Positions 4,261 through 52,943 of a stretch of 64,000 bases of DNA are shown piece by piece. Both the position numbers and the translations under genes were made by a program. Positions within the stretch are counted from its first letter, which is position 1. Every line of letters begins with the position of its first letter. The notes under the pieces were generated by a model. That model did no database searches. It saw nothing but the letters and a program-made list of their open reading frames with translations, and had not been told where the DNA came from. Source of the DNA: Candidatus Obscuribacterales bacterium (lineage in GTDB: Bacteria; Cyanobacteriota; Vampirovibrionia; Obscuribacterales; Obscuribacteraceae); contig JAGVKG010000010.1 of the NCBI GenBank assembly GCA_020050685.1, positions 62,001-126,000 on the forward strand, given 5' to 3'.

Positions 4261-4815
4261 ATGGTTAATCGGAAATCTAGCAGAAACTGGGCAAGCCTCG
4301 CTTTAGTTGCTTCAGCCTTTGTTTCACTTACATTGACTGGCTGCGGATCAGCAAACAACAATTCTGCAGCGGTCCCAACACCACAAGGCACAATTTCTTT
4401 GGACTTGGTAAAAGTTGGTATGCCTGAGTCCACTTTCAAAGATGCGATCTTGACCTTCGTTCCAGATCCGGATCCACGCGCATCCGTTGGCGGCAAGACT
4501 CAGTACTTGAGCCGCACAAAAGATGCCAATGGTGGCCAATATATCGCCCAGTGCTTCGGCGGTACATGTCGTCAAGTATTGGTCTACTACATGGACCGTC
4601 CAGTATCACGCGAGACAGCAATGACTGTGCTCAAGACCCTTTTCCCAGCCGATGCTCCACAGACTTCGCAAATTGACGAAAAAGGGCTGAAGGATGCCAT
4701 TCCAGTTGCGAAGGTAACTTTGAGTGACGCTTATAAGGGCGAGTTAATTTGCGCCGACAAGGAAGGCTCGCAAGTCAAAATTGTCCAAGCAACATTTGCC
4801 CAAAAACAAATGTAA
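4261..4815 (+). CDS. hypothetical lipoprotein
   Basis: A 184-residue protein with a clear lipoprotein signal: basic start, hydrophobic segment, and the lipobox LTGC with Cys at about residue 28, followed by a Ser/Asn/Ala linker. The mature domain contains three further cysteines (AQCFGGTC and ICADK), so one or more disulfides are possible. I do not recognise the domain; it has the size of small BLIP/SmpA-like folds, which is only a suggestion. A GGAG Shine-Dalgarno sequence lies about 11 bases before the ATG. A TATAAT sequence occurs at 4147-4152 in the 144-bp gap from sbcD. A strong hairpin follows the stop, so it is probably a single-gene unit. Confidence 0.7.
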   Translation: MVNRKSSRNWASLALVASAFVSLTLTGCGSANNNSAAVPTPQGTISLDLVKVGMPESTFKDAILTFVPDPDPRASVGGKTQYLSRTKDANGGQYIAQCFGGTCRQVLVYYMDRPVSRETAMTVLKTLFPADAPQTSQIDEKGLKDAIPVAKVTLSDAYKGELICADKEGSQVKIVQATFAQKQM

Positions 4816-34590: not shown

Positions 34591-34679
34591 TCACGTCGAA
34601 CTCGACTCTCATAAGACAAGTTTCAAACAGCTAAGCCAATAAGTACTTTAAAATTGCATGCTATGAGAATTTGCCTGTT

Positions 34680-36395
34680 ATGAGAATCTGTATAATCTCG
34701 CGCGAATATCCCCCGGAGACCGGGTGGGGCGGCATAGCGACTTTTGCCCGCCACTTGTCCCAAGGTCTGAAAGAGCTGGGGCACGAAGTAGTTGTCGTTT
34801 CGCTGTCCACTGGTGCAGCAAAAACGGAAGTGACGGATGGTATTACCGTTCATCGCGTGAGCACCGAAACAAATTCCACGCGTTACACAGATTCGGCATT
34901 CCACCTTTCGGCAATGGCTTTGTGCATGCCTTACAGCCGCTACGTTTTGCAAACGTCGACAGCTCTGTGGAAAAAATTCATTGAGCTGCACGCAGAAAAG
35001 CCCTTTGATGTTGTCGATACGCCTGAGCTTTTGGCAGAAGGTTTGTATCCTGCGGCGACAAAAGTCGCACCGCTTGTGATTCGACTTTACACACCGCATT
35101 CAAAATTCATTGCCGAGAAACTGCACAACGTCAAACCATCGTTTGATCATGAATTTGTCGCCGCACTGGAACGCGTAGCGATGCTTTCTGCCGATGCGCT
35201 CACATCACCATCAGATGATTTGTCTGAATTTGTGGCTCGCGATTTGCATTATCCACAAACAGATATCGCCATCGTTCGCAATCCAATTGACCCGGAAGAA
35301 TTTTCGCCTGAAGGTCATAAGGCATTGGCTGACGATGGTAAAGTCGACAACGATCCAAGCAAAGAGATCAGAATCCTGTTTGTTGGACGCCTGGAAGAAA
35401 GAAAAGGCATCCACTATCTTATCGATGCAGTGCCGGAAGTCTTAGAGGCTTGCCCGAATGCCCGCTTTGTGATTATTGGCGATGACACCAATAATGGTGC
35501 CGGTCAAAAATCAGTTTTGGCTGAGTTAAAACAAAAAATTGCCCAGCATGGCTGCGAACACGCACTGACATTTATCAAACGCATACCGCTGAAAGAGCTG
35601 CCAGCCTACTATCGCTCAGCTGATATCTCTTGCGTGCCGTCGGTATACGACAACTCGCCTTATACATGTTTGGAAGCAATGTCTTGCGGTCGTCCGGTAA
35701 TTGGCACTTCAGGTGGTGGCACCGCAGAATATATTGGCACACAGGAGCCAGGAAAAGAATGTGGAATTGTTATTCCACCTCGTGATACCAAAGCACTAGC
35801 GAGTGCATTGATTCGACTTTGTCAGAGCGCGGATGAGCGCAAGCGGATTGGCGAGAATGCGCGCAAACGCGTGATCGAGCAATTCCATCGCCGCGAAATT
35901 GCTCGTCAAACTGTTGAGCTGTATGAGTTGGCTCATAAGCGATTTATGACCAACAAATCGAATTCGCTCTATCAAAAAGATGTGAACTTTGCTCTTGCCG
36001 ATGCGCAAACAATTCTGATTAGCGCCGACAAGATGATTTACGACACGTTGTATGCACATTCGTTAGGATTCCGCATACGGCATTGGGGGAGATTAGTGAT
36101 GAAGCGCCCACGCCTAGCAGCAGCAAAGACTCTTGCAGTTTTTGCCCGCACCTCATTCAAGTTGTTTGGCATAAGCACAGGGCCACTGGCCGCCTGGCTT
36201 GCCAATTACGAAAGATACATCGAGCACAAGCAGTTTCCGCATATCAATTTCGTTGGCGGTGAGGGCGAGGAAACCTCGCCCCTACAGGATCCTTTTGCAG
36301 ATTTGTTCATGGTAGTCTACGACGAGAATGACGGCACGCTTGCAAACGCAAACATTGCCAAAGAACGCGAGCTACTTGAATTATCAAAGAGATAG
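34680..36395 (+). CDS. GT4 glycosyltransferase with C-terminal tail
   Basis: A 571-residue retaining GT-B enzyme. Acceptor domain: REYPPETGWGGIATFARHL. Donor domain: LFVGRLEERKGIHYLIDA and SVYDNSPYTCLEAMSCGRP with the conserved EX7E region. After the usual GT4 end (~residue 420) there is a ~150-residue tail containing DKMIYDTLYAHSLGFRIRHW, which also occurs in the shortened paralogue at 44811. Bases 36263-36286 in this tail are a GGGCGAGG hairpin repeat read in frame. I start at the ATG at 34680. The next gene starts 6 bp after the stop. Confidence 0.85.
   Translation: MRICIISREYPPETGWGGIATFARHLSQGLKELGHEVVVVSLSTGAAKTEVTDGITVHRVSTETNSTRYTDSAFHLSAMALCMPYSRYVLQTSTALWKKFIELHAEKPFDVVDTPELLAEGLYPAATKVAPLVIRLYTPHSKFIAEKLHNVKPSFDHEFVAALERVAMLSADALTSPSDDLSEFVARDLHYPQTDIAIVRNPIDPEEFSPEGHKALADDGKVDNDPSKEIRILFVGRLEERKGIHYLIDAVPEVLEACPNARFVIIGDDTNNGAGQKSVLAELKQKIAQHGCEHALTFIKRIPLKELPAYYRSADISCVPSVYDNSPYTCLEAMSCGRPVIGTSGGGTAEYIGTQEPGKECGIVIPPRDTKALASALIRLCQSADERKRIGENARKRVIEQFHRREIARQTVELYELAHKRFMTNKSNSLYQKDVNFALADAQTILISADKMIYDTLYAHSLGFRIRHWGRLVMKRPRLAAAKTLAVFARTSFKLFGISTGPLAAWLANYERYIEHKQFPHINFVGGEGEETSPLQDPFADLFMVVYDENDGTLANANIAKERELLELSKR
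36263..36286 (+). repeat. GGGCGAGG-AAA-CCTCGCCC hairpin repeat inside a gene
   Basis: Arms GGGCGAGG (36263-36270) and CCTCGCCC (36274-36281) flank AAA and are followed by CTACAG. The same design occurs at 39266 with one base pair changed on both arms. It lies in frame in the tail of the GT4 gene and encodes EGEETSPLQ. Confidence 0.75.
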
Positions 36396-36401
36396 TTGGC
36401 T

Positions 36402-39188
36402 ATGACCTCAAATTGTATTTTCCAGCAGCAAGCACCAAGCAAACCTGCCAACAAAGCAACTGAGTCAGTGCTGCGTTTGTGGAGCCATTCCAATGCATGG
36501 GCGTATGCAATTATTTTTGTAGTGGCACTGGCAATTCGTCTTTGGTTTAACTTTGGTACAAATCATGTCAACAACTACACTAGCTGCGATGCCTGGGAAT
36601 ATCTAAGCAATGCTTCTTTGCTTGGCCAATTTCTTGACGGCTTGTCCAAACAAAGTCCGGAATTTTTCTCGGCTTGCTTGAGTGTGCTTAGCAGCAACAC
36701 CGCCGGTTCAAATGCTTCTATCTTAAATGCCGCCTTTAAACCTCTGAGTGATTTTTATATCTCGGGTCCAGTTTTTCCTGCCTACCTGATGCTCTGCTTC
36801 ACAGCCTTTGGACAATCATTTGATGCTGGTAATTTTCAACAGTTGTTGTCAATTCAAAGTGCAATATCAGCGTTGACTTGTGTTGCAATTGCCGGAATCG
36901 GATCACTATTATGGACAAGAAACGTTGGCATTCTCGCAGGCGTAATTGCCGCTTTCTATCCTGGCTTTATTGTCAATTCTGGTCGACTTTATCCTGAAAC
37001 ATTTGCAGCCTTCGTTCTTAGTTTGATCGTATTGATTACGGTCAATGGATTTGTGCGGCGCGGGAACCATGTTGCACTGACTTTCTGTCAAGGAATTCTC
37101 TTAGCCTGTTTGCAATTAAGTCGTTCGGCAATGGTGGCACTTTCAATTGTGCTTTTGCCAATCACACTTTTGCAAGAGCGGCTGCGCAGGCCTGTTCTTT
37201 CACTTGTGGCTCTGGTCTTCGGCTTCATGCTTGTTGCCTTGCCCTGGATGGGATTCCAAAAACTAGCCTTTGGATCGGCAAGCCTTGTAGTAGACCGAGT
37301 CGGTCACTACAATTTTTTTGTCGGCAACAACGCTGAAATTGGTGGGTTCCTTTCCACACCATATCCTGATGGTCATGGCATCGAAAAGGAAAGTTTCGCG
37401 ACGCTTGCCGAGCGGGCAATTAATAAAAATCCACAAGCCTGGCTCAAGCTAATGATGGACAAGGGACCACGACTGTTCAAGTTCTCTTGGAACGATTTTC
37501 GCGCAGCCATTGGTCCAATTTCGCCCTGGCAGCAAATTCTATTTCAGCAATTTATTTTGGTGCTAGCCTTATGCGGTATCACTCTTGCTTGCTTTGAAGA
37601 TCCCCATAAGCGCCAGCTTTCAGCCGGTAGACTGAATGGCAGAATTTTTGTTTTCGGCTTGCTTGCCTTCCATCTGATCTATCTATTTTTCATCACCGTG
37701 CCGCGCTATAACCTGACGGCGATGCCTTGGCTAATATTATTTGCCGCCGCCGGATCACAAGCAATGTTCACAAATATCGGCAAAGCATTAACGAAACTCA
37801 CGCCTTGGCTGCTACCAATTTCTGCCCTGACATTTCTGATTGTCGCTCATGCAAATTTAATTGAGCTGTTTTCTTCGCTGCCAGCATTTGCTAATGGTCA
37901 GGATATCACCGCATGCGTGATTGCCTCTTCCACCGTAAAAGCATTAGCTTTAATTGCCTTCTGCGCCGTTTTATTCAAGCAAGCTCGCACGCTTCCCGCA
38001 AAAGCAATCCTTAGCCTAGTGGCACTATTCATCTTTGCACCTGTCTGTTTACCAACACGTGCCCATGGAAGAGCTTGGGAGTGGCAGCAAATAATTGCCA
38101 AGCCAGGCGATGAAATAGTGCAGACTATCGATGTCACAGCCTTATTTGATAATCAGCACCAACAAGAATTGAAAAATCTTGGCACCAATCAATGTTACGT
38201 GCTTTTAGATGCAGACGGCGTAGGTGATCTAAACGACGGAATAGAAGTAAGCGTTAATGGCACCGTACTCCATTCGCCAATCATTGCTGGACTTTCTTTT
38301 ATCGACAATGTCAGCTCGTACAAATTGCGCCAAGCAAATACAAACGAGAATCAAATCTATTTAGAAATGGAAGACATCTACAAAGGTTTGAGCGCAGCAG
38401 CCGGACTATCGGCAAACGGGCTTAGGCAGTGGTTCTTGATGCCTATTCCCAAAAGCATAATTGAATCGGGATTAGCAACAAAACAAGTCACTCTCAATGA
38501 CGTGGGCAAATTCAAAATCATTTTGCGAAAAACAAACACATCGCCTAGCAAGATTTTTGGCGGTTATAACACAAGCAAAAAAGATATCCGCATTCCCTCG
38601 ATTGCCTTGTACTCCTGGGAAAAAGCATTCTATGGCGTCGAGAACGATCAAGGGCTCTCCGACACTCGCTACGACATGAACATCGCTAACAATTCTGCTG
38701 AAGGAAATTTTGTTGCACGCAGCCCATTCATTAGACTTCTAGTTTCTCCTGCAGGCGCGTTAACAAAACTCTGGGAGACTGACTTGATCGGTACCGGCAC
38801 TTGCGGTTTGCCACCATCTCTTAGATCGCAAGCCAAAGGTCTCTGGTTGATTCAAGCACACGGTTTTGTTTCTCCTGGATTTGCTTCTCATGCTTCGGGC
38901 TCGCGCGCTTCAGGCGCACCTAAGCTTGAGCTGAAAGTCTATTGCCGCGGCAAAGATGGAAAAATTCTCACTTACACTTCGCCGTGGGCGGAGTTGAGAA
39001 ACGATCGCCATTGCACGACTGAAGATTTCAATTTTGCCGTGCCAATTAATCCCCAAGGGCTGCCTGGACAGATCGAAAGCATCGCTCTAACAGTTTCCCC
39101 GAATGCCTCGTCATCTCTGGATAATTTGCATCTTGATATCCTGCAATTGCCCGCCATTCCCACAGGTGTTGGCAGCCGCGTTTATTAG
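36402..39188 (+). CDS. long GT-C-type membrane protein with C-terminal beta-sandwich (3)
   Basis: A 928-residue relative of the proteins at 18766 and 21646. The membrane half has SCDAWEYLSNAS, YISGPVFPAYLM and FYPGFIVNSGRLYPET at the same places as their DxxxY, DGPxxP and YPxxIV-ET blocks. The soluble half has LRQWFLMPIP, matching RQWRAVPVP and RQWRVIEVP, and FGGYNTSKKDIRIP. It is the most diverged of the three and lies right after the GT4 gene, so donor and acceptor chemistry may be linked. The start is ATG 36402; a TTG at 36396 directly after the GT4 stop is an alternative. Confidence 0.63.
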   Translation: MTSNCIFQQQAPSKPANKATESVLRLWSHSNAWAYAIIFVVALAIRLWFNFGTNHVNNYTSCDAWEYLSNASLLGQFLDGLSKQSPEFFSACLSVLSSNTAGSNASILNAAFKPLSDFYISGPVFPAYLMLCFTAFGQSFDAGNFQQLLSIQSAISALTCVAIAGIGSLLWTRNVGILAGVIAAFYPGFIVNSGRLYPETFAAFVLSLIVLITVNGFVRRGNHVALTFCQGILLACLQLSRSAMVALSIVLLPITLLQERLRRPVLSLVALVFGFMLVALPWMGFQKLAFGSASLVVDRVGHYNFFVGNNAEIGGFLSTPYPDGHGIEKESFATLAERAINKNPQAWLKLMMDKGPRLFKFSWNDFRAAIGPISPWQQILFQQFILVLALCGITLACFEDPHKRQLSAGRLNGRIFVFGLLAFHLIYLFFITVPRYNLTAMPWLILFAAAGSQAMFTNIGKALTKLTPWLLPISALTFLIVAHANLIELFSSLPAFANGQDITACVIASSTVKALALIAFCAVLFKQARTLPAKAILSLVALFIFAPVCLPTRAHGRAWEWQQIIAKPGDEIVQTIDVTALFDNQHQQELKNLGTNQCYVLLDADGVGDLNDGIEVSVNGTVLHSPIIAGLSFIDNVSSYKLRQANTNENQIYLEMEDIYKGLSAAAGLSANGLRQWFLMPIPKSIIESGLATKQVTLNDVGKFKIILRKTNTSPSKIFGGYNTSKKDIRIPSIALYSWEKAFYGVENDQGLSDTRYDMNIANNSAEGNFVARSPFIRLLVSPAGALTKLWETDLIGTGTCGLPPSLRSQAKGLWLIQAHGFVSPGFASHASGSRASGAPKLELKVYCRGKDGKILTYTSPWAELRNDRHCTTEDFNFAVPINPQGLPGQIESIALTVSPNASSSLDNLHLDILQLPAIPTGVGSRVY

Positions 39189-42255: not shown

Positions 42256-44814
42256 ATGCAAACAGTTAAGTCGCCAGCATCTGATACATTCTCGACCAAG
42301 CAACATAACGCGCACTCTTATGCCGACTTACTATGCTCACCCCTAGGCTCGGCAATCGCATCTATATTGTTGATAGCGCTTGTGGCCGCCTGCTTTGGAC
42401 GCACGCTGGGCAGTTACTTCTTGGCTGATGACATTGGCGAAGTCGCTTACGTCTATAAGATTTTCCACGGACAACCAGAACTCTTCTGGTCAAACTTCAC
42501 CGGCAACTACATGCAAATTGCTTCGATGAATGTTTACCGCCCGTTCTTACTGCTGAGCCTTGTAATTGACTTTGTGGTCTGGCAAGCACAAGCATTTGGC
42601 TACTATCTATCCAACCTGACTCTCTACACAGGTTGTGTGCTTTTGTTATTTGCGATCACCAAACAGTTGACGACAAGCTGGAGCGCCTGGAGATCGCAGG
42701 CTTGCGCATTTGCAACGGCAGCTCTATTTGCAGTCAATCCACTGCATGCAGAAAGTGTTTGCTGGGTTGTTGGACGTGTTGATATTTTTTGCGGATTCTT
42801 TTATTTATTGGCTTTATATTGTTCGTTGCGCGCCTGGCAAGCGAAAAAAGATTCCGGCTCTGACCAAACGTCATTCGGAAGCAAGGTGTTCACTGTTATC
42901 GCCTGCGCCGCATTTTGGTCCGGACTATTTATAAAAGAAATGGCAATTGGTTTGCCTGTGCTTTTAAGCGTTCTTGGTTTCATGGGTGTAAATGGTGGCA
43001 CGACCGAAACATTGGCGGCGCGATTGAAATCCGCATGGAATGCCAGCCGCGCCTTTTGGATTTCCACAGTAATTTATTTTGCTATTCGCTTTGCCGCACT
43101 TGGCACTTTGCTTGGCGGCTACACAGGATCAATTGGCACATCACAATTTGCCAATACGATTGCACGCTGGTTAGACCACGACACCCTAATTCGCTTGGTA
43201 TTGCCATTCAACTATTATGTTTTTGCTGGACTAACAATGTGGTCGCAAGCATTGTTGATTTGCTACGCACTGCTTGGTGTCTATATTCTGACACGACTGC
43301 TTGCCGGCGAGCTTTCATTTAAACTGTTAGGTCTTCTAGCAGTTTGGACTGCAACTTGTGCAGCACCAATTTATCAACTCTGGGGATTGGGATATAACCT
43401 GGAGGGAGCTCGCTTCTATTTCTTTTTGACGATCCCCTTGAGCATGCTTTTGCCAATTCTGATATTTCAACCAAAGCAAAATATTGCTCATATTGAAACA
43501 TCAAACAATCAGTTGCGTACAGTTATTATTTCTTCCATCGCTGCCGTAATATTCGTTTCGATGGTAGCGATATTCTACAAATCCGCTTACGCCAATGCAG
43601 TTGTTTGGCTACAAGCCGGCAAGCAAGTGCGTGCCGTACAACAACAATCAATCGCCCTGACACAAAGGGTTCCAGAGACCAAGAAGATACTTGTCCTTGG
43701 CTTACCAAAGGATCAGGGTGGCGCACACATGATCCTCAACGGCTATACATATGGCATGTTGGTCAGCCCACCTTTCTGCAAAGAGAATCTCGCAGATCGC
43801 TTTGTCACATTTGACCCGGTTGTATTTGGCTCTCCAACTTTCATAAATGCCTCAAGATTCAAATCGACCCTGGCGCAAAAGAGTTCAATTGGGCCATTTA
43901 TTTGGAACGGCAGTGAGTTTGTGCAAACAGATTTAGGAGCAGGCTTCGGAGAGCGCGTGATCTTCTTAAGCCAGCAATTGCAAAACACTACCGACAGTCA
44001 ACCGCACACAATTGGTCACGCCACTTACCGCATTCACAATGGCGTTTATGATTTCCAATCTGCCAGCGTCGGCGACGGTATCAGATTTGATAGTCTCGAT
44101 TTAAATCCGCTTTCCTGCGATGTGCTCGCCTTCGATCTCGCAATCGAGAATGGCAGTGGAGCGCGCACTATCAAAGCATATTGGAATCAATCAATGCTTG
44201 ATGATAATCTGGATAACAGTGTGCAAACAGCGATTAATCTCGACAGCACAAAACCAAATCAATTCCAAACTGTCTATTTGAGATTGTCAGCCAACTGGCA
44301 CTGGTTTAGCGAAAGCAAAATCAACAACCTGACGCTTGCCTTGTTCCCAGATCAACGAATTCGCGTGAAGAATGTTTATCTCCTGCCTGCATCGTTGACA
44401 GCACCACAGCTCACAGTGATCAACGGACAAGAAAAGCAAGTCGGCGTTTACAAGTTTGGCAAGACACCAACATGGTTAGCGGCCAATGCCTCGCAGATTT
44501 CTGATGCGAAGAGTATCGATGTCGAAATCTCCAAACCAGATCATTTCTTTGACAATCTTCAGTCTTCACAAAATCCGAATCTTGCCATCGGCAACTTCAT
44601 TCATTTGCCAGTGACAAACAACACAGTCCTACTTCCGGAATCCGCATTGGCCAAACCAGGCTTCTACCAAGTGCGGGCACGTGCTCTGGATGCTCTCGGA
44701 AAGCCTTTGCGCGAGTATTCCGATCCAATCACCATCCGAAAGGATAAAGATACATCGGCAACAGCAAAATCATCTGGCACGCTTTTGATCAAGAATTCCA
44801 AGGAGAGCTTATGA
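42256..44814 (+). CDS. TMTC-like GT-C membrane protein with C-terminal soluble domain
   Basis: An 852-residue protein. The first ~470 residues are polytopic, with SYFLADDIGEVAY (paired Asp of GT-C enzymes), NVYRPFLLLS and NPLHAESVCWVVGRVDIFCG. These blocks match the TMTC/PMT-related family, in which they form the active site facing the periplasm. The rest is soluble, beta-rich, and ends in a Ser/Lys tail. It starts 2 bp after the SGNH gene and overlaps the next gene by 4 bp (ATGA). It is only distantly related to the other GT-C proteins in the window. Confidence 0.72.
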   Translation: MQTVKSPASDTFSTKQHNAHSYADLLCSPLGSAIASILLIALVAACFGRTLGSYFLADDIGEVAYVYKIFHGQPELFWSNFTGNYMQIASMNVYRPFLLLSLVIDFVVWQAQAFGYYLSNLTLYTGCVLLLFAITKQLTTSWSAWRSQACAFATAALFAVNPLHAESVCWVVGRVDIFCGFFYLLALYCSLRAWQAKKDSGSDQTSFGSKVFTVIACAAFWSGLFIKEMAIGLPVLLSVLGFMGVNGGTTETLAARLKSAWNASRAFWISTVIYFAIRFAALGTLLGGYTGSIGTSQFANTIARWLDHDTLIRLVLPFNYYVFAGLTMWSQALLICYALLGVYILTRLLAGELSFKLLGLLAVWTATCAAPIYQLWGLGYNLEGARFYFFLTIPLSMLLPILIFQPKQNIAHIETSNNQLRTVIISSIAAVIFVSMVAIFYKSAYANAVVWLQAGKQVRAVQQQSIALTQRVPETKKILVLGLPKDQGGAHMILNGYTYGMLVSPPFCKENLADRFVTFDPVVFGSPTFINASRFKSTLAQKSSIGPFIWNGSEFVQTDLGAGFGERVIFLSQQLQNTTDSQPHTIGHATYRIHNGVYDFQSASVGDGIRFDSLDLNPLSCDVLAFDLAIENGSGARTIKAYWNQSMLDDNLDNSVQTAINLDSTKPNQFQTVYLRLSANWHWFSESKINNLTLALFPDQRIRVKNVYLLPASLTAPQLTVINGQEKQVGVYKFGKTPTWLAANASQISDAKSIDVEISKPDHFFDNLQSSQNPNLAIGNFIHLPVTNNTVLLPESALAKPGFYQVRARALDALGKPLREYSDPITIRKDKDTSATAKSSGTLLIKNSKESL

Positions 44815-45677
44815 GAATCTGCCTTATCTCATCAAACAGTGCGACATTCCAACTTGCTCTTGGATTGAAGAATTTCGGTCATGATGTGGAAGTTATTGCA
44901 CTTGCGACTTCAGACGATCAGCACGCGCAGCAAACCAATCAAAGTTCGATTGTCTCCCATTACGTGACCGAATCAAATTCTCAAACAGAACTCGGTGTTG
45001 TTCCAGTCTGCATGCCAAATAGCAAATACTTATTCAGCGTTGCCGATGCGCTATGGAAAAAGTTGGCCGAGCTACACAAAGAAAAACCTTTCGACGTTGT
45101 CGATGTTCCCGATTACGTGCTTGCCGGCTTAATGCCAGGAATGACTCGCGAGATTCCATTCGTTCTCAGACTAAGCAACAAGTTGCCAAAATACGTCGCC
45201 AGCAACATGCATCCAATCACTTATCCTTTCGACATGCAGTTCCCAACACTCCTGCGATCTGTCAGTCTGACGATGGCCGATCAAGTGATTGCACCAAATC
45301 AAATGTGGTCCGGTCACCTCCAACAACATTTAGGACTGGCACCAGAGAGAATTGCAGTCATCAATGAAACTCTCTCCCCTCAAGAGTCAGCACAACTATC
45401 CGTTTCCACCTACGAAAACGCAAAACAAATATTCGCCGAACGATCAGCCAGCCCTCTTTACCGCAAGGGCAACGAACAAATGATCATAGACAGCCAATCT
45501 ATGTATCTTCTCTGGGACAAAATGCTCTATGACGCATTCTTCGTCCAATCCTACAGCTTCCGCATCCGCCACTGGTTCCGCAAACTAGTAAACACCCCCC
45601 AAGGCAACCTGCAAACCCTAATCGGAACCATCATCGCCAAAACCATCAACCCCAAATGGTACCAACGCGTCGTTTAG
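44811..45677 (+). CDS. GT4 paralogue lacking the donor-binding domain
   Basis: A 288-residue protein homologous to both ends of the 571-residue GT4 at 34680. The N-terminal half shares MRICxIS, MPNSKYLFS-like MPYSRYVLQ and ALWKKLAELHKEKPFDVVD; the C-terminal part shares QMIIDSQ-like ALADAQT, DKMLYDAFFVQSYSFRIRHW. The whole Rossmann domain that binds the nucleotide sugar, with its EX7E motif, is absent. The reading frame is clean, and the ATG overlaps the previous gene (ATGA), so it is translated. It may be a binding partner or regulator of a glycosyltransferase instead of an enzyme. Function unknown. Confidence 0.7.
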   Translation: MRICLISSNSATFQLALGLKNFGHDVEVIALATSDDQHAQQTNQSSIVSHYVTESNSQTELGVVPVCMPNSKYLFSVADALWKKLAELHKEKPFDVVDVPDYVLAGLMPGMTREIPFVLRLSNKLPKYVASNMHPITYPFDMQFPTLLRSVSLTMADQVIAPNQMWSGHLQQHLGLAPERIAVINETLSPQESAQLSVSTYENAKQIFAERSASPLYRKGNEQMIIDSQSMYLLWDKMLYDAFFVQSYSFRIRHWFRKLVNTPQGNLQTLIGTIIAKTINPKWYQRVV

Positions 45678-46769: not shown

Positions 46770-46795
46770 ATAACATATTGCACGAGGTGCTCCAA

Positions 46796-47044
46796 ATGGG
46801 TTTCCATATCTATCTCGAACCGGAGTTGCAGTCCGAAATTGAAAGTCTGTGCAGAGAAAGCGGGCGCAAGCGAAACAGCGTGGTTCGCGAGGCTCTAAGG
46901 GAATACGTGCAGAAGCGGGTGCAACAAAAATGGCCCGATGCCGTATTCGATTTCAAGCCGGACCCGAAGCTGGCTCGATTTGAATCATTACGAGGCGACC
47001 TGCTTTCCGATCGAGAAAACATCTTCGACAAGGAAGGGGCATGA
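46796..47044 (+). CDS. ribbon-helix-helix antitoxin (VapB-like)
   Basis: An 82-residue protein with a CopG/MetJ/Arc-type N-terminus: the beta-strand MGFHIYLEPEL, then helices around SEIESLCRESGRKRNSVVREALREYVQ. The C-terminal half (FKPDPKLARFESLRGDLL) is the usual toxin-binding extension. I start at the ATG at 46796, with GAGG 8 bases upstream; a TTG six codons earlier is possible. It overlaps the PIN-domain gene by 4 bp (ATGA), the standard antitoxin-toxin layout, and a palindrome in its promoter is its probable operator. Confidence 0.83.
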   Translation: MGFHIYLEPELQSEIESLCRESGRKRNSVVREALREYVQKRVQQKWPDAVFDFKPDPKLARFESLRGDLLSDRENIFDKEGA

Positions 47045-47448
47045 GCGTCTATTTGTTGGATACCTGCACAATAAGCGACTTTTTTTCGGGCATAAGCAGC
47101 ACAAAAAAAAGACTGCTCGACCTTTCACCATCGCAAATTGCCATCTCTGCTATCACCGTCATGGAAATTTCGTATGGTTTCCGATTGAAACCAGCAATTG
47201 CACGCAAATTTTCCACTTCATTCAATAGCTTATGCCGAGTAGCGCGAATTCTACCATTTGATCAGGCTGCTGCTCAGGTAGCTGCCGATATTAGATCCGA
47301 ACTAAAGAAAAAAGGCACACCAATTGGATCTTTCGATCTCCTTATCGCCGCCATCGCCATGTCGCAAGAATGCATCCTTGCGACTTCCAATGTTAGCGAA
47401 TTTGCAAGGATAAAAGACTTGCAGATCCAAAATTGGAGACTTAACTAG
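47041..47448 (+). CDS. vapC: PIN-domain toxin (VapC-like ribonuclease)
   Basis: A 135-residue PIN-domain protein with the conserved acidic residues D7 (YLLDTC), E42 (VMEISYG) and D99 (GSFDLLIAA), and N117 in ATSNVSEFARI. VapC toxins cut tRNA or rRNA with a Mg2+-dependent active site. The gene overlaps its RHH antitoxin by 4 bp. Every key residue is present, so it is probably active. Confidence 0.9.
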   Translation: MSVYLLDTCTISDFFSGISSTKKRLLDLSPSQIAISAITVMEISYGFRLKPAIARKFSTSFNSLCRVARILPFDQAAAQVAADIRSELKKKGTPIGSFDLLIAAIAMSQECILATSNVSEFARIKDLQIQNWRLN

Positions 47449-47541: not shown

Positions 47542-47738
47542 TAGAACCCTCATCAGTTGAGCTTTTACAGGTCAAGGGTGGTTGCCGCTTGAACGTTGGA
47601 AAACCCGGTTTCCAAAGCGTCCCCATACCAACATGAATGTACATATTATACTTATAGTACGTAGGGTGATACGTAGTTTCAGTGTCATTAACACTGTTGG
47701 CTTATATGTTCGAACAGCTGATACATCCGGAGTCTGGA

Positions 47739-50700
47739 ATGCAACACCCCACTAAATATTTAGTTACCTCCTTAATTCTGACGGTAATTTTTGCCACTTC
47801 AACTTTAACTGTTCCTGCTCAGTCCTGGGAAAGGGGTCAGACACAGGCTGCCAGTGTTCCGAACGACAGTAGCGCCTCCACTGCCAGCGTGAATCTGGAT
47901 CTTTCATCCACAGCACGGTCTGTATCGGCCAGTGCCCTTGGTTTGGCCGGCTCGGTTTCCATAAATGTTGGCGGCGTGGCTCGCATGATCAGCGGCACGG
48001 ATGTATTAACGCCGGCAGAATTCATGGCAGCATCGCAGGTAATGAATGGTGGACTCCAGACCCTAAAAGTGGGAGCAGATGGAAATGCGGTGCGCGGAAG
48101 ATTTACGCTTTCACAAGAATTGGCAGTGCAAATCACAAATATAGTGATTCCACAAAATGTAAAACTGTTTCAAGATTTTGGAACCCTGGCCTCCCTGTCA
48201 CTAGTAGGTGACATCAATAATTCTGGAAAGATATTTGCCTTATCAACGAATGCTGCTCAAACCATGGCAACGTTTTCTGCGCAAAATATTTACAATCAAT
48301 CTACCGGCGTAATTACGTCTGTTGCATCTAGCGAGAGCGGCTGGCGGAATCAAGTTTCGAATCTGGGAATGACATTGAACGCCGTTGATAATTTTATGAA
48401 CGCTGGACAACTTATCAGTGCCGGTGATTTGAGTTTGTCAGCTGGCGGCACACTGAGCAATCTTGGATCAGCTCAAGCTCTGATGCAAGCTGCAGGCAAT
48501 GTGAATCTTACATCTGAAAATATAGTGAACAGCGGCAAGATTGCTTCACTTGGTGGCAATGTCAATTTTGGCACTGTTACCACTACTGACTTGAACATCA
48601 ATAATCTTGGCGGACAGATCCTTGCACAATCCGGCGCTGTTAATTTACGATCAGTGGATTACTTTGGTACTGCCAATACATTCTTGATTGGTGGCGATGT
48701 TCTATCACAATCCTTGAATTTGAATACTGGCAATGGTGTGACAGAGGTTGATGTTGATCAGCTAACCGCCATTGTTAATTCGGCAGGTTATGGTGCGCAC
48801 ATTGTGGCATCTACTAGCAACTTGCAATTGGGCAATATTGAGTTGGTTGATCCAACCTTTTACAATAGTGCCGGCAACATAATAATTACAGGCTTTGTCA
48901 GCGCTAGTGAGGCAATTTCAATCATTGCTTCTGGAGATATTACTGCAAATCCGAATGGCAAAATTACTGCCAGCGGTGGAGCGGGCGTGAAAAATATTAC
49001 AGTCATAGCTGGAGCACTGATCACTCCGTGTGGCTCATGTACTGACTCGACCGATTTGCCTGCTGGTGGGCATGCTGTGCCATCCCTTGATACGGTGACC
49101 GTAAATGTTTTAGCTGGTGCGGGAGGAGACATCGATTTTACTGATTCTACGCAATCAACCATTATTCAAACAACTAGTGGCAATGTGACTTTGGCAGCAG
49201 TGGGAGGCAGCATTTACTTGCCTGCTAGTGGTCTAGTTAGTGCCTCTTCCGGTAATGTGCTTCTTGTATCTGGTGCTAATACTGGTACGGGAATTGAAGC
49301 TGGACCGATTTCAGCTAGCGGGTCGATCACATTGATTACCTCACCCGCAACAACTGACAATGGACTGCCATTGCAATTCCAGAGCAACGGATCCACGGTT
49401 GGCAATCATTTTATTACGAGTACAATTCCGCTTATCGGAAGCGATACGGATGTGCATTTAGCGGGGACCCTTTCTTCACCGACTGCAATTAATATCGTGG
49501 CATCTGGAAACATCACTCAGTCCGGTGGACGTTTAAATAGTCCAAACCTTACTTTAAAATCGACTGCTGGAAATATTGGCACAAGTGATTTAGCACCACT
49601 ATACTTTGCAAGCAGTGCGGCCACTTCCGATCGAGTCAATTTGATTGCACAAGCAAGTGGTTCTGTATGGTTGAATGATCCCTTGATCGAAGATGATGTC
49701 CAATTTAGCAATGCGGTATCAGCAAATATCTCGAGCGCAGGTACAAGCTTCTCGTTAACTGCGATGGATGAGATCGTATCAGCGGTGTCAACCCTTGCTG
49801 TGGCCAGTCCAATAATGAATTTGACCAGTGTGAACGATAATGTTGGTACCAATGGAGGCAATGGTTTGGAGATTGCCAGCAATCCAACTTCGCCTGGGGT
49901 TCTACATCTGACAGCTCATGCCGGGGCGACGGTTGGATTGGTTGATAGACTTATCGGAGATACGATAATACTTGAAGAGTCATCCGCAGGGCTTAACTTC
50001 AACTTGGCTGGCAGAGCCAGCATAACTGCGCACGATATATCGGCTTATGAGGATTTGCAATTATTCACTTACGATGGAACCATAGAAATAGTTCCTGAAG
50101 CAAAATTGATATCTGGTGGCTTTGTAATTATTCAAGTTCTGAATACCAATACTGGTGCCATTGCCATTGGCGAGAACGCCAACATAATTACAGGTACTGG
50201 AGAGCTTGGCAATACTTCGCTTTACATTGGTATTGGTCAAAGAATTCCACCCTTTGATCAGGGAGTTGAGCCAGCCAACGTTGACAGTTTGACCTCGAGA
50301 GGAGGCCAAATCCTTTGGGGACAAAATGGGCTGGTCGCATCAGCGCCTAGCAACTTGGTAGTTGCAGATGCGGGAGATGTCATCTTTGATGATAAGAGTT
50401 CTGCCGGTAATAAAATTACGCTCGGCGGCGGTACCATCATTGCGATTTCGCAAGTCCACAGATTAGATAGTTTAGATTTGACGGATCCAACCGTAGTTGG
50501 TGATGTCTTGATTGGTCAAACCATTCATTTATTTGGTGGCGCACTAACTGTGTCAGAAGGCGTTGCCACTGGTGGCACGCTGATTTTGACGCCGGAAAAT
50601 ATTGGTTCTCTTCTTTCCGCATTCAATATACCTCAGTCTGTCGCGGTTACTTTCAATGATTTTCAATCTGCAACTCCCCTAGTCGTTGAGCTCTCTATAG

Positions 50701-52943
50701 TGAGTTCAACGACTAGTGTGGTAATCAATGGCGAACAAGAATTTGTCGGTACGACTGGCTTGTCGCATGCTGTACTCAATATTGCTAGTACTCTTGACGG
50801 AACAGCATTAAATGTGGGAACCACTGGAGTTTTGTCTAGCGATGGCATCTTGGTACTAAATATAAATGGTGGCACCACTTCTCTTAATGGACTTATTTCT
50901 GGTGGTAGTACTTTGACTATTGAGAGCGATGATGCTGTAACTATCAACGGATTGCTTACCAGCTCAACAAGTGCGTCAGTTCAGGCAATTGGTAATATCG
51001 GTGGCAGTGGCAAGATCAGTAGTCCCGATATTTCTCTTTTCTCGACGGGTGGTAATGTAGGCACAAGTGAAATTGTTCCCTTAACGGTAACGAGTAGCCC
51101 AAGTATTGCAGGAACCCTGAGCCTTTTAGTTCAGGCAGCCAGCTCAGTGTGGTTGGTCGATAATTTGATTGGAGACAACGTGTCACTCTACTCAGAGGGA
51201 ATTTTCTCTACAGCTGGTACCTCATTTTCATTAAGCGCAGCAGGAAATATAACCTCATCTTCAGATACTACGCCACCGCCCGGTATACCGTATCAACCAA
51301 CCATTGCCAGCCCGGATTTTTTCTTAAAGACAACAAATGGGAATATTGGCGAGAACAGTTCACCTTTGTGGATTGTTTACGGACCGATTCAAACCGGTAC
51401 AATTAGTCTTGTAGCACAAGCCAGTGACTCCGTTTGGATAATAGGAAGTAGCAACAATATTCAGTTCAGAAATATTGATGTTGCACATATGTCGAGTGCA
51501 GGATCTTCTTTTTCATTAACGGCACCTGGTGCAATAACCTCGGTGACTACTGGAGATGCTGTTAATAGTCCAGTTATTATCATAGATGGCATAACGCTTA
51601 GTGGAGAGCTTGTGCTACCGATTTTATCAATTCAACCGCTGGTTTCGCTTGACCTGACAATCCCGAGTGTGGTTCAAACAATTCTGGGACAGCAAAACCT
51701 TAATTTGCTTGGTGGCGATCTGATTGTAAATAATGGCGTGGCTACTGGTGGCAATGTTTTAATTCAACCGGCAAACCTTAAGGATCGAATAAATGGTCCC
51801 GACTTTCTCCATGGTTTCAGTATTCCGAATGGAGTGACCGTACAATTCGATGGGTTTAATTTTGGTGATAGTATTGTGGTTCAGCCCCCCTCTTCCTTCG
51901 GCCCATCAGTGGTCATAAATGGCACGGTGGAATTTAATAATTCGCCGAATGCTTCGATTGGTATTGGTGGTGGACTTGGTTTTGATCCTAGACATTCAAG
52001 AACGCCATCATTGATAATTGGACCAAGTGGTACTGTTACGGCTGATGGTAATCTGCATCTTGGCTCACCGCGAGATATTGTCATTTATGGAAATATTGTG
52101 TGCTCTAACTCCAGTTCGGTTGTGACGCTTAGTTGCGACAATGAAATATCCCTTCGTGGCAATATTGGTTCTAGTGCCACCAATTTTAGTCTTTGGAGCG
52201 ACAAGATAACTCAGAGAGCTGGTACCTTAACAGCGGCTTCTTTGGAATTCTTTGTGAGGCAAGATATAGGAGCGGCAACCAAGGTGATAAAGACAACTGC
52301 ATCCTCAATGACCATTAATGGCATCGGTCCTTCTGGTGTTGTATACATTTCCAATACAGGCGCACTTGATCTAACTGGTTCTTTAGCGTTCAAAACGATT
52401 CGTGTATTGAATATTGGCGACCTAACGGTTAATAACCTCTCGGCAGGCGATATTACGTTGAGCACCACTGGTGGTGCACTTCATGTGGCCGATGGTGCAA
52501 GCGTAATCGCTCAGCGTGGAAGTCTGATTTTGCAGAATGCTGATAAGCGGAATGGCACCATAACAATCGGTCAAGATGCAACATTATCATCATCCACTAC
52601 AAGGGGACGAGCCACTGTTACTGTCGCAATCGGCGCACTTCCTCTGGTTGCCGTAAAAGGTATAACTCCCCTGAACGTACAGACAACTGGAAAGTCCTTC
52701 TATTACGGCAAGAATAGCATCACTGCACTTGCCCCAAACAACCTGCTTACAAGTAATGAACAAAGTATTGTATTCAACACCGGGAGGCTGCCAGCAACAG
52801 CAATAACCCTTAACGGCGGCGTGCAAATCTCTGCAACCAAAGTTTCGCTGACCAACGAAGCACAATCCAACGAATCAATCGTGGACACCAGTGAATACTT
52901 CGATGAGACTGGAGAAGTTGAGTACACTCTGGGCGTAAAATGA
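47739..52943 (+). CDS. giant secreted beta-repeat protein (adhesin-like)
   Basis: A 1734-residue protein with a Sec signal peptide (basic start, then YLVTSLILTVIFATSTLTVPAQS). The rest is Gly/Ser/Thr/Asn/Val-rich with short beta-strand periodicity, as in filamentous-haemagglutinin or beta-helix adhesins. Two kinds of internal repeat are visible. Four copies of a block with NIG(T/E), LVAQAS-SVW and SAG(T/S)SFSL lie near 49549, 49807, 51028 and 51316. Two copies of a longer block with SLDLT-PSVV and LFGGALTV/LLGGDLIV lie near 50451 and 51622. No TPS-type secretion domain, anchor or TpsB partner is seen. I start at the ATG at 47739 because GGAG lies 6 bases upstream. Confidence 0.7.
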   Translation: MQHPTKYLVTSLILTVIFATSTLTVPAQSWERGQTQAASVPNDSSASTASVNLDLSSTARSVSASALGLAGSVSINVGGVARMISGTDVLTPAEFMAASQVMNGGLQTLKVGADGNAVRGRFTLSQELAVQITNIVIPQNVKLFQDFGTLASLSLVGDINNSGKIFALSTNAAQTMATFSAQNIYNQSTGVITSVASSESGWRNQVSNLGMTLNAVDNFMNAGQLISAGDLSLSAGGTLSNLGSAQALMQAAGNVNLTSENIVNSGKIASLGGNVNFGTVTTTDLNINNLGGQILAQSGAVNLRSVDYFGTANTFLIGGDVLSQSLNLNTGNGVTEVDVDQLTAIVNSAGYGAHIVASTSNLQLGNIELVDPTFYNSAGNIIITGFVSASEAISIIASGDITANPNGKITASGGAGVKNITVIAGALITPCGSCTDSTDLPAGGHAVPSLDTVTVNVLAGAGGDIDFTDSTQSTIIQTTSGNVTLAAVGGSIYLPASGLVSASSGNVLLVSGANTGTGIEAGPISASGSITLITSPATTDNGLPLQFQSNGSTVGNHFITSTIPLIGSDTDVHLAGTLSSPTAINIVASGNITQSGGRLNSPNLTLKSTAGNIGTSDLAPLYFASSAATSDRVNLIAQASGSVWLNDPLIEDDVQFSNAVSANISSAGTSFSLTAMDEIVSAVSTLAVASPIMNLTSVNDNVGTNGGNGLEIASNPTSPGVLHLTAHAGATVGLVDRLIGDTIILEESSAGLNFNLAGRASITAHDISAYEDLQLFTYDGTIEIVPEAKLISGGFVIIQVLNTNTGAIAIGENANIITGTGELGNTSLYIGIGQRIPPFDQGVEPANVDSLTSRGGQILWGQNGLVASAPSNLVVADAGDVIFDDKSSAGNKITLGGGTIIAISQVHRLDSLDLTDPTVVGDVLIGQTIHLFGGALTVSEGVATGGTLILTPENIGSLLSAFNIPQSVAVTFNDFQSATPLVVELSIVSSTTSVVINGEQEFVGTTGLSHAVLNIASTLDGTALNVGTTGVLSSDGILVLNINGGTTSLNGLISGGSTLTIESDDAVTINGLLTSSTSASVQAIGNIGGSGKISSPDISLFSTGGNVGTSEIVPLTVTSSPSIAGTLSLLVQAASSVWLVDNLIGDNVSLYSEGIFSTAGTSFSLSAAGNITSSSDTTPPPGIPYQPTIASPDFFLKTTNGNIGENSSPLWIVYGPIQTGTISLVAQASDSVWIIGSSNNIQFRNIDVAHMSSAGSSFSLTAPGAITSVTTGDAVNSPVIIIDGITLSGELVLPILSIQPLVSLDLTIPSVVQTILGQQNLNLLGGDLIVNNGVATGGNVLIQPANLKDRINGPDFLHGFSIPNGVTVQFDGFNFGDSIVVQPPSSFGPSVVINGTVEFNNSPNASIGIGGGLGFDPRHSRTPSLIIGPSGTVTADGNLHLGSPRDIVIYGNIVCSNSSSVVTLSCDNEISLRGNIGSSATNFSLWSDKITQRAGTLTAASLEFFVRQDIGAATKVIKTTASSMTINGIGPSGVVYISNTGALDLTGSLAFKTIRVLNIGDLTVNNLSAGDITLSTTGGALHVADGASVIAQRGSLILQNADKRNGTITIGQDATLSSSTTRGRATVTVAIGALPLVAVKGITPLNVQTTGKSFYYGKNSITALAPNNLLTSNEQSIVFNTGRLPATAITLNGGVQISATKVSLTNEAQSNESIVDTSEYFDETGEVEYTLGVK

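Follow-up and report, generated by a model that had tools for sequence, protein, structure and literature searches.

Can a glycosyltransferase that has lost its entire donor-binding domain still have a role, and of what kind? The question is raised by a gene in the 64,000-nucleotide stretch of Candidatus Obscuribacterales DNA that we analysed (hereafter, the window). The original prediction held that this gene encodes a paralogue of the GT4 glycosyltransferase at 34680 that kept both ends of the protein, and suggested a non-enzymatic role for the product, for instance as a partner or regulator of the full-length enzyme. The two proteins are referred to here as the short and the long GT4, and the features discussed are listed in Table 1.

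Table 1. Features of the short GT4 gene and of its neighbours in the window
Feature	Position	Strand	Basis
Short GT4, 288 aa, donor domain absent	44811..45677	+	Unbroken frame, match to long GT4 in two blocks, confident model with one domain
Ribosome-binding-like AAGGAG, and ATGA in which the upstream stop and the start overlap	44799..44814	+	Sequence
Acceptor-side Rossmann domain, residues ~1-190, lacking GG loop and TPH, which intact enzymes have	44811..45380	+	Pfam Glyco_transf_4, motif comparison, model
Crossover helix, residues 190-212, joined straight to the acceptor domain; follows the donor domain in the long form	45378..45446	+	Models
Family-specific helical tail, residues ~220-279, motif D.MLYD....S..FR..HW	45468..45647	+	Alignments, model helices
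Long GT4, tailed and full-length, 574 aa (571 if started at ATG 34680), with intact motifs in the active site	34671..36395	+	
Membrane protein A, polytopic (930 aa, ~11 TM), encoded next after long GT4	36396..39188	+	
Membrane protein B, polytopic (852 aa, ~8 TM); candidate partner, encoded immediately upstream of short GT4 and translationally coupled to it	42256..44814	+	

The short GT4 lacks a donor domain in an intact frame

The short GT4 starts with ATG and its 288-codon frame is intact; the ORF of the long GT4 has two possible starts, TTG at 34671 or ATG at 34680, the latter being the position named in the original prediction. BLASTP aligned the two proteins in two collinear blocks, one in the acceptor half (short GT4 residues 1-192 against long GT4 residues 4-210, 36% identity, E 3e-36) and one in the distal tail (residues 186-264 against 403-481, 34% identity, E 3e-13). 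Both scores were far above those from 1000 shuffles each, at 299 for the acceptor block (shuffled mean 33, maximum 58) and 124 for the tail block (mean 29, maximum 53), so both alignments that had been proposed were borne out. Between the blocks, about 195 residues of the long GT4, comprising the entire donor domain, were left unmatched, and no stop or frameshift was found at the junction. Pfam matches in the short GT4 covered the acceptor domain and nothing else (Glyco_transf_4, PF13439, E 9.5e-11, and Glyco_trans_4_4). The same scan gave no match to Glycos_transf_1 (PF00534), which the long GT4 has at E 2e-38, and there were zero NCBIfam matches. The predicted clean loss of the nucleotide-sugar domain was thus confirmed, as was the coupled ATGA start, which overlaps the upstream stop just after AAGGAG. 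An assembly artefact or hidden frameshift was ruled out, because the frame and the predicted fold are continuous and independent MAGs have the same architecture.

The short GT4 modelled alone with AlphaFold2 (41 family sequences) gave a confident, self-contained domain, with a pLDDT of 89.9 and a pTM of 0.85. The model consists of a single Rossmann domain, the crossover helix and three tail helices (221-246, 248-261 and 263-279); the equivalent helices in the model of the long GT4 are 404-428, 435-460, 462-475 and 477-496. What the short GT4 lacks is thus one complete domain, excised at the hinge of the GT-B fold. Foldseek returned MshA among the top hits, and the best target coverage was obtained with 6ldq, whose title describes a sucrose-phosphate synthase trimmed to residues 27-220 and 406-426. 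By analogy with this trimmed protein, a layout of acceptor domain plus crossover helix may well be stable, as 6ldq suggests.

Tailed GT4 proteins in Obscuribacterales

We searched 50 genomes of the window's bacterial family and then extracted ORFs with a tail profile. This yielded 84 full ORFs of tailed GT4 proteins, all from this one family in Obscuribacterales. The donor domain appeared intact at GRL..RKG and in the EX7E region in 69, had a normal length with these conserved residues partly or wholly lost in eight, and was missing in seven. The seven short forms belong to three genera: that of the window (288 aa), a second genus represented by genome G003 (310 aa), and genus g23, in which five genomes (G022, G067, G069, G070 and G071) encode proteins of 263-278 aa. 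A search for orthologues had been proposed as a check of the short form; a one-off deletion would have shown itself by orthologues at this locus that all carry the donor domain, and the prediction would likewise have failed had the short form been unconserved. Neither was found, and the short form is conserved across five species of g23. Scanning of contigs with a single sequence returned nothing, and scanning with an alignment returned six loci, the same as in the genome search. The records so found are labelled Candidatus Obscuribacterales, Melainabacteria or Cyanobacteria, except for one titled Actinobacteria bacterium (CAJCIF010000524.1, locus L193), which carries a short form and which the genome search places in the window's family; it is probably a mislabelled MAG.

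The GG loop and the TPH motif, which are consensus in the 69 intact forms, are lost in all seven short forms, and the columns invariant across the seven are mostly in the tail or of fold-type residues. PimA binds its substrates through residues that are conserved among proteins of this fold, namely His118, Lys202, Glu274 and Glu282 (PMC4506291); TPH, matched by position, is the candidate equivalent of His118. Judged from its sequence, the short GT4 is almost certainly non-catalytic. Intact long forms are also present in the window's genome and in the g23 genomes having a short form; none was found in G003, a MAG that is 65% complete.

One of the eight degenerate proteins is the third tailed GT4 of the window's own genome (contig C27:9428-10861, loci L037 and L002), a full-length protein of 477 aa in which GRL..RKG is lost and CLKIM stands in place of CLEAM. 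Genera g23 and g13 share a clade of donor-degenerate full-length GT4 (L076:2473-3843, L130, L131, L133, L134, L135 and L137), and in G070 one such gene lies 8 bp upstream of a B membrane protein gene. At another g23 locus (L083:2660-4012, G069:C238), the acceptor-domain match of a tailed GT4 spans an in-frame TAA, which may indicate a broken gene or an assembly error.

Origins of the short forms and constraint on the tail

In a tree built on acceptor-plus-tail columns, the window's short form was sister to the degenerate C27 paralogue of its own genome (support 98/86), and the pair belonged to a clade of degenerate forms (96/90). All five short forms of g23 made up one clade (100/98), apart from which the window's short form lay on a long branch. 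A single clade of all short forms was not rejected by the AU test (p 0.127), several of the branches being long. No close orthologue of the window's short form was found among the genomes sampled, including those of its own genus. In G003, the gene just before the short form encodes a membrane protein, E; in two relatives (G019 and G013), what comes after the E homologue is an intact long GT4. This synteny suggests a separate loss of the donor domain in G003, where the short form may replace, rather than assist, the intact enzyme of the two relatives.

The tail is the least conserved part of the intact enzymes: among five of them from g23 genomes, identity was 76-95% in the acceptor domain, 81-91% in the donor domain and 36-81% in the tail. 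In the five orthologous g23 short forms this order is inverted, with the tail the most conserved part (77-91%, against 31-61% in the acceptor domain); dN was 0.32-0.84 for the acceptor domain and 0.09-0.19 for the tail, dS being mostly saturated. The inversion is seen for the g23 short forms only, which are clearly maintained in that one genus. The window's short form and the C27 protein, a paralogue and not a close orthologue, share 47% identity in the tail and 41% in the acceptor domain.

The tail was not found on unrelated proteins in the window's own genome, nor convincingly across 386 genomes from the phylum. Five of these 386 gave weak hits, which were judged to be chance matches, as they were short and most contained stop codons.

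Gene neighbourhood

With its ABC-2 exporter genes, PMT_2-type membrane proteins and MBOAT protein, the window is a locus of the surface-polysaccharide type. Many relatives have the order long GT4, A, B; in the window, A and B are separated by an MBOAT gene and a GDSL-like gene, and the short form comes after B. B-family homologues were present in all 50 genomes searched, often straight after A. The window's A and B have no Pfam match, and we call them GT-C-like because of their topology and because one A homologue matches PMT_2, though below the threshold. Every one of the seven short forms is directly downstream of a gene for a polytopic membrane protein (gaps of -4 to 19 bp). The upstream neighbours, however, belong to three membrane families (A, B and E) and not to one protein, so one conserved partner is unsupported, and this counts against a docking of the short form on such a partner.

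In g23, where the upstream neighbour is an A homologue, the order is A, short form, lipoprotein gene, exporter. Two g23 species (G032 and G068) have the exporter membrane gene directly after A, with neither short form nor lipoprotein gene; the slot is empty (L202 and L203; G068:C44 and G032:C162), with about 140-170 bp between A and the exporter and no clear remnant. Because the short gene is missing at the syntenic place in these two species, it is dispensable. The window has a lipoprotein-like gene without Pfam match at 4261-4815, just upstream of the ABC exporter, whose product is 34-41% identical to the lipoprotein that follows the g23 short forms. This lipoprotein of ~210 aa was ruled out as an obligate partner because it is unspecific, occurring in 36 of 50 genomes, most of which have no short form. 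Shortly after the short GT4, at 46778-47448, an RHH/VapB-like gene and a PIN-domain gene overlap and probably form a toxin-antitoxin pair, and 47682-52943 encodes a 1753-aa protein of repetitive make-up with an apparent signal sequence and no Pfam match, which may be secreted or sit on the cell surface.

Discussion

The absence of the donor domain, the loss of the acceptor motifs, the failure to find a stand-alone donor domain in the window's own genome and the selection on the g23 tails together give good support to a non-enzymatic role. We give about an even chance to the reading that the short GT4 is a catalytically dead pseudoenzyme that serves, docked by its tail, as a scaffold subunit of a membrane glycosyltransferase complex. 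The donor domain would have been removed at a natural GT-B boundary, leaving the acceptor Rossmann domain, the crossover helix and the tail as a stable single-domain protein; the tail would bind the GT-C-like membrane glycosyltransferase encoded immediately upstream, and the docked protein would help to assemble or position a polysaccharide-building complex. We infer the binding of the tail to the membrane protein from adjacency, coupling and conservation of the tail, and likewise infer an effect of the short form on polysaccharide synthesis. Against this reading weigh the three membrane families upstream, the absence of the short gene from two g23 species and the limitation of the inverted constraint to that genus, the window's copy having no close orthologue. 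The original prediction stands in its non-enzymatic part, which the missing domain, the lost motifs and the selection on the tail support, but the neighbourhood makes the adjacent GT-C-like membrane protein a likelier partner than the full-length GT4, which need not be involved.

The long GT4 would be involved if the short form were a competitive regulator, occupying with its tail of the same kind the docking site of the full-length enzyme and so adjusting the amount of active enzyme bound to the membrane complex. Short and long forms do have the tail in common, and both occur in the window's genome and in the g23 genomes; we nevertheless consider this rather unlikely, since in the g23 genomes the tails of the short forms are tightly conserved while the long-form tails drift, which does not suggest one shared site, and since G003 yielded no long form, within the completeness of that MAG. 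That the window's copy is a functionless relic, a recent domain deletion heading for loss, is likewise rather unlikely. It would fit the long branch, the lack of a species-level orthologue among the genomes sampled in the window's genus and the missing gene in two g23 species, but the open frame, the strong translation signals and coupling, the confident fold, the retained tail motif and the persistence of parallel forms across five species in another genus all argue otherwise.

Two further readings would keep the short form enzymatic. The GT-C fold typically uses lipid-linked donors, and the short form is found among GT-C-like enzymes, so that its acceptor domain alone might carry out a transfer in which the donor is lipid-linked and not a nucleotide sugar; with the catalytic-type motifs lost and the invariant columns where they are, we find this scarcely credible. 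It is also very improbable that the short form is the acceptor half of a split enzyme of the Alg14/Alg13 (EpsE/EpsF) type with the donor half on a separate protein, even though it has retained the same half as Alg14, the one with the acceptor site (PMC8993221). In the window's own genome, each match to PF00534 or PF04101 falls in an open frame of at least 355 aa, leaving no orphan donor domain; none that was convincing was found with PF00534 in four other genomes (frames of 246 and 126 aa being left out); and the acceptor-side catalytic motifs are gone.

Returning to the scaffold reading, we propose tentatively, and with less than even confidence, a wider version of it: tailed GT4 enzymes may have given rise to a class of single-domain pseudoenzymes more than once in Obscuribacterales, with degenerate full-length intermediates still extant, and these would dock by their tails on membrane GT-C-like enzymes, which they would scaffold or regulate during the assembly of surface polysaccharide. 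The locus is of interest as an apparent natural excision of a GT-B donor domain for which the likely steps (intact, degenerate, domain lost) are extant in one bacterial family, and all three stages are present in one genome. With constraint moved from the catalytic domains onto the tail, a short helical element stands out as the part that does the work. The docking of a cytosolic GT4 on membrane GT-C-like enzymes, and the role of a dead glycosyltransferase in polysaccharide assembly, thereby become open to direct test.

In the literature searched, which left most subscription journals outside its scope, no description of a donor-less tailed GT4 family was found. The short form resembles GT4 glycosyltransferases such as PimA, MshA and WbnH (Glyco_transf_4 plus Glycos_transf_1) in the sequence and fold of its acceptor domain, as the PF13439 and MshA matches indicate, but lacks their donor domain and active-site motifs (among them GG loop and TPH) and has an added family-specific tail. 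Alg14 and EpsE are likewise free-standing acceptor-side GT-B halves, Alg14 being the acceptor-site half of a split enzyme (PMC8993221); unlike them, the short form has neither a Pfam Alg14 match nor catalytic motifs, no donor-half partner protein was found in its own genome, and it bears the extra tail. GtfB of the GtfA/GtfB complex, which has been described as an acceptor-binding chaperone and not a transferase (PMC6973325), resembles the role proposed here, that of a non-catalytic glycosyltransferase partner, an association that gene adjacency and coupling suggest in our case. GtfB has a DUF1975 domain and a protein acceptor, whereas the short form matches neither DUF1975 nor the GtfB family in Pfam and NCBIfam, and its likely partner is a membrane protein. 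A counterpart in layout is the crystallised 6ldq, which according to its title consists likewise of an acceptor domain and crossover helix with the donor domain removed; by the same title that protein is an engineered enzyme construct, whereas the short form is natural, recurrent and tailed.
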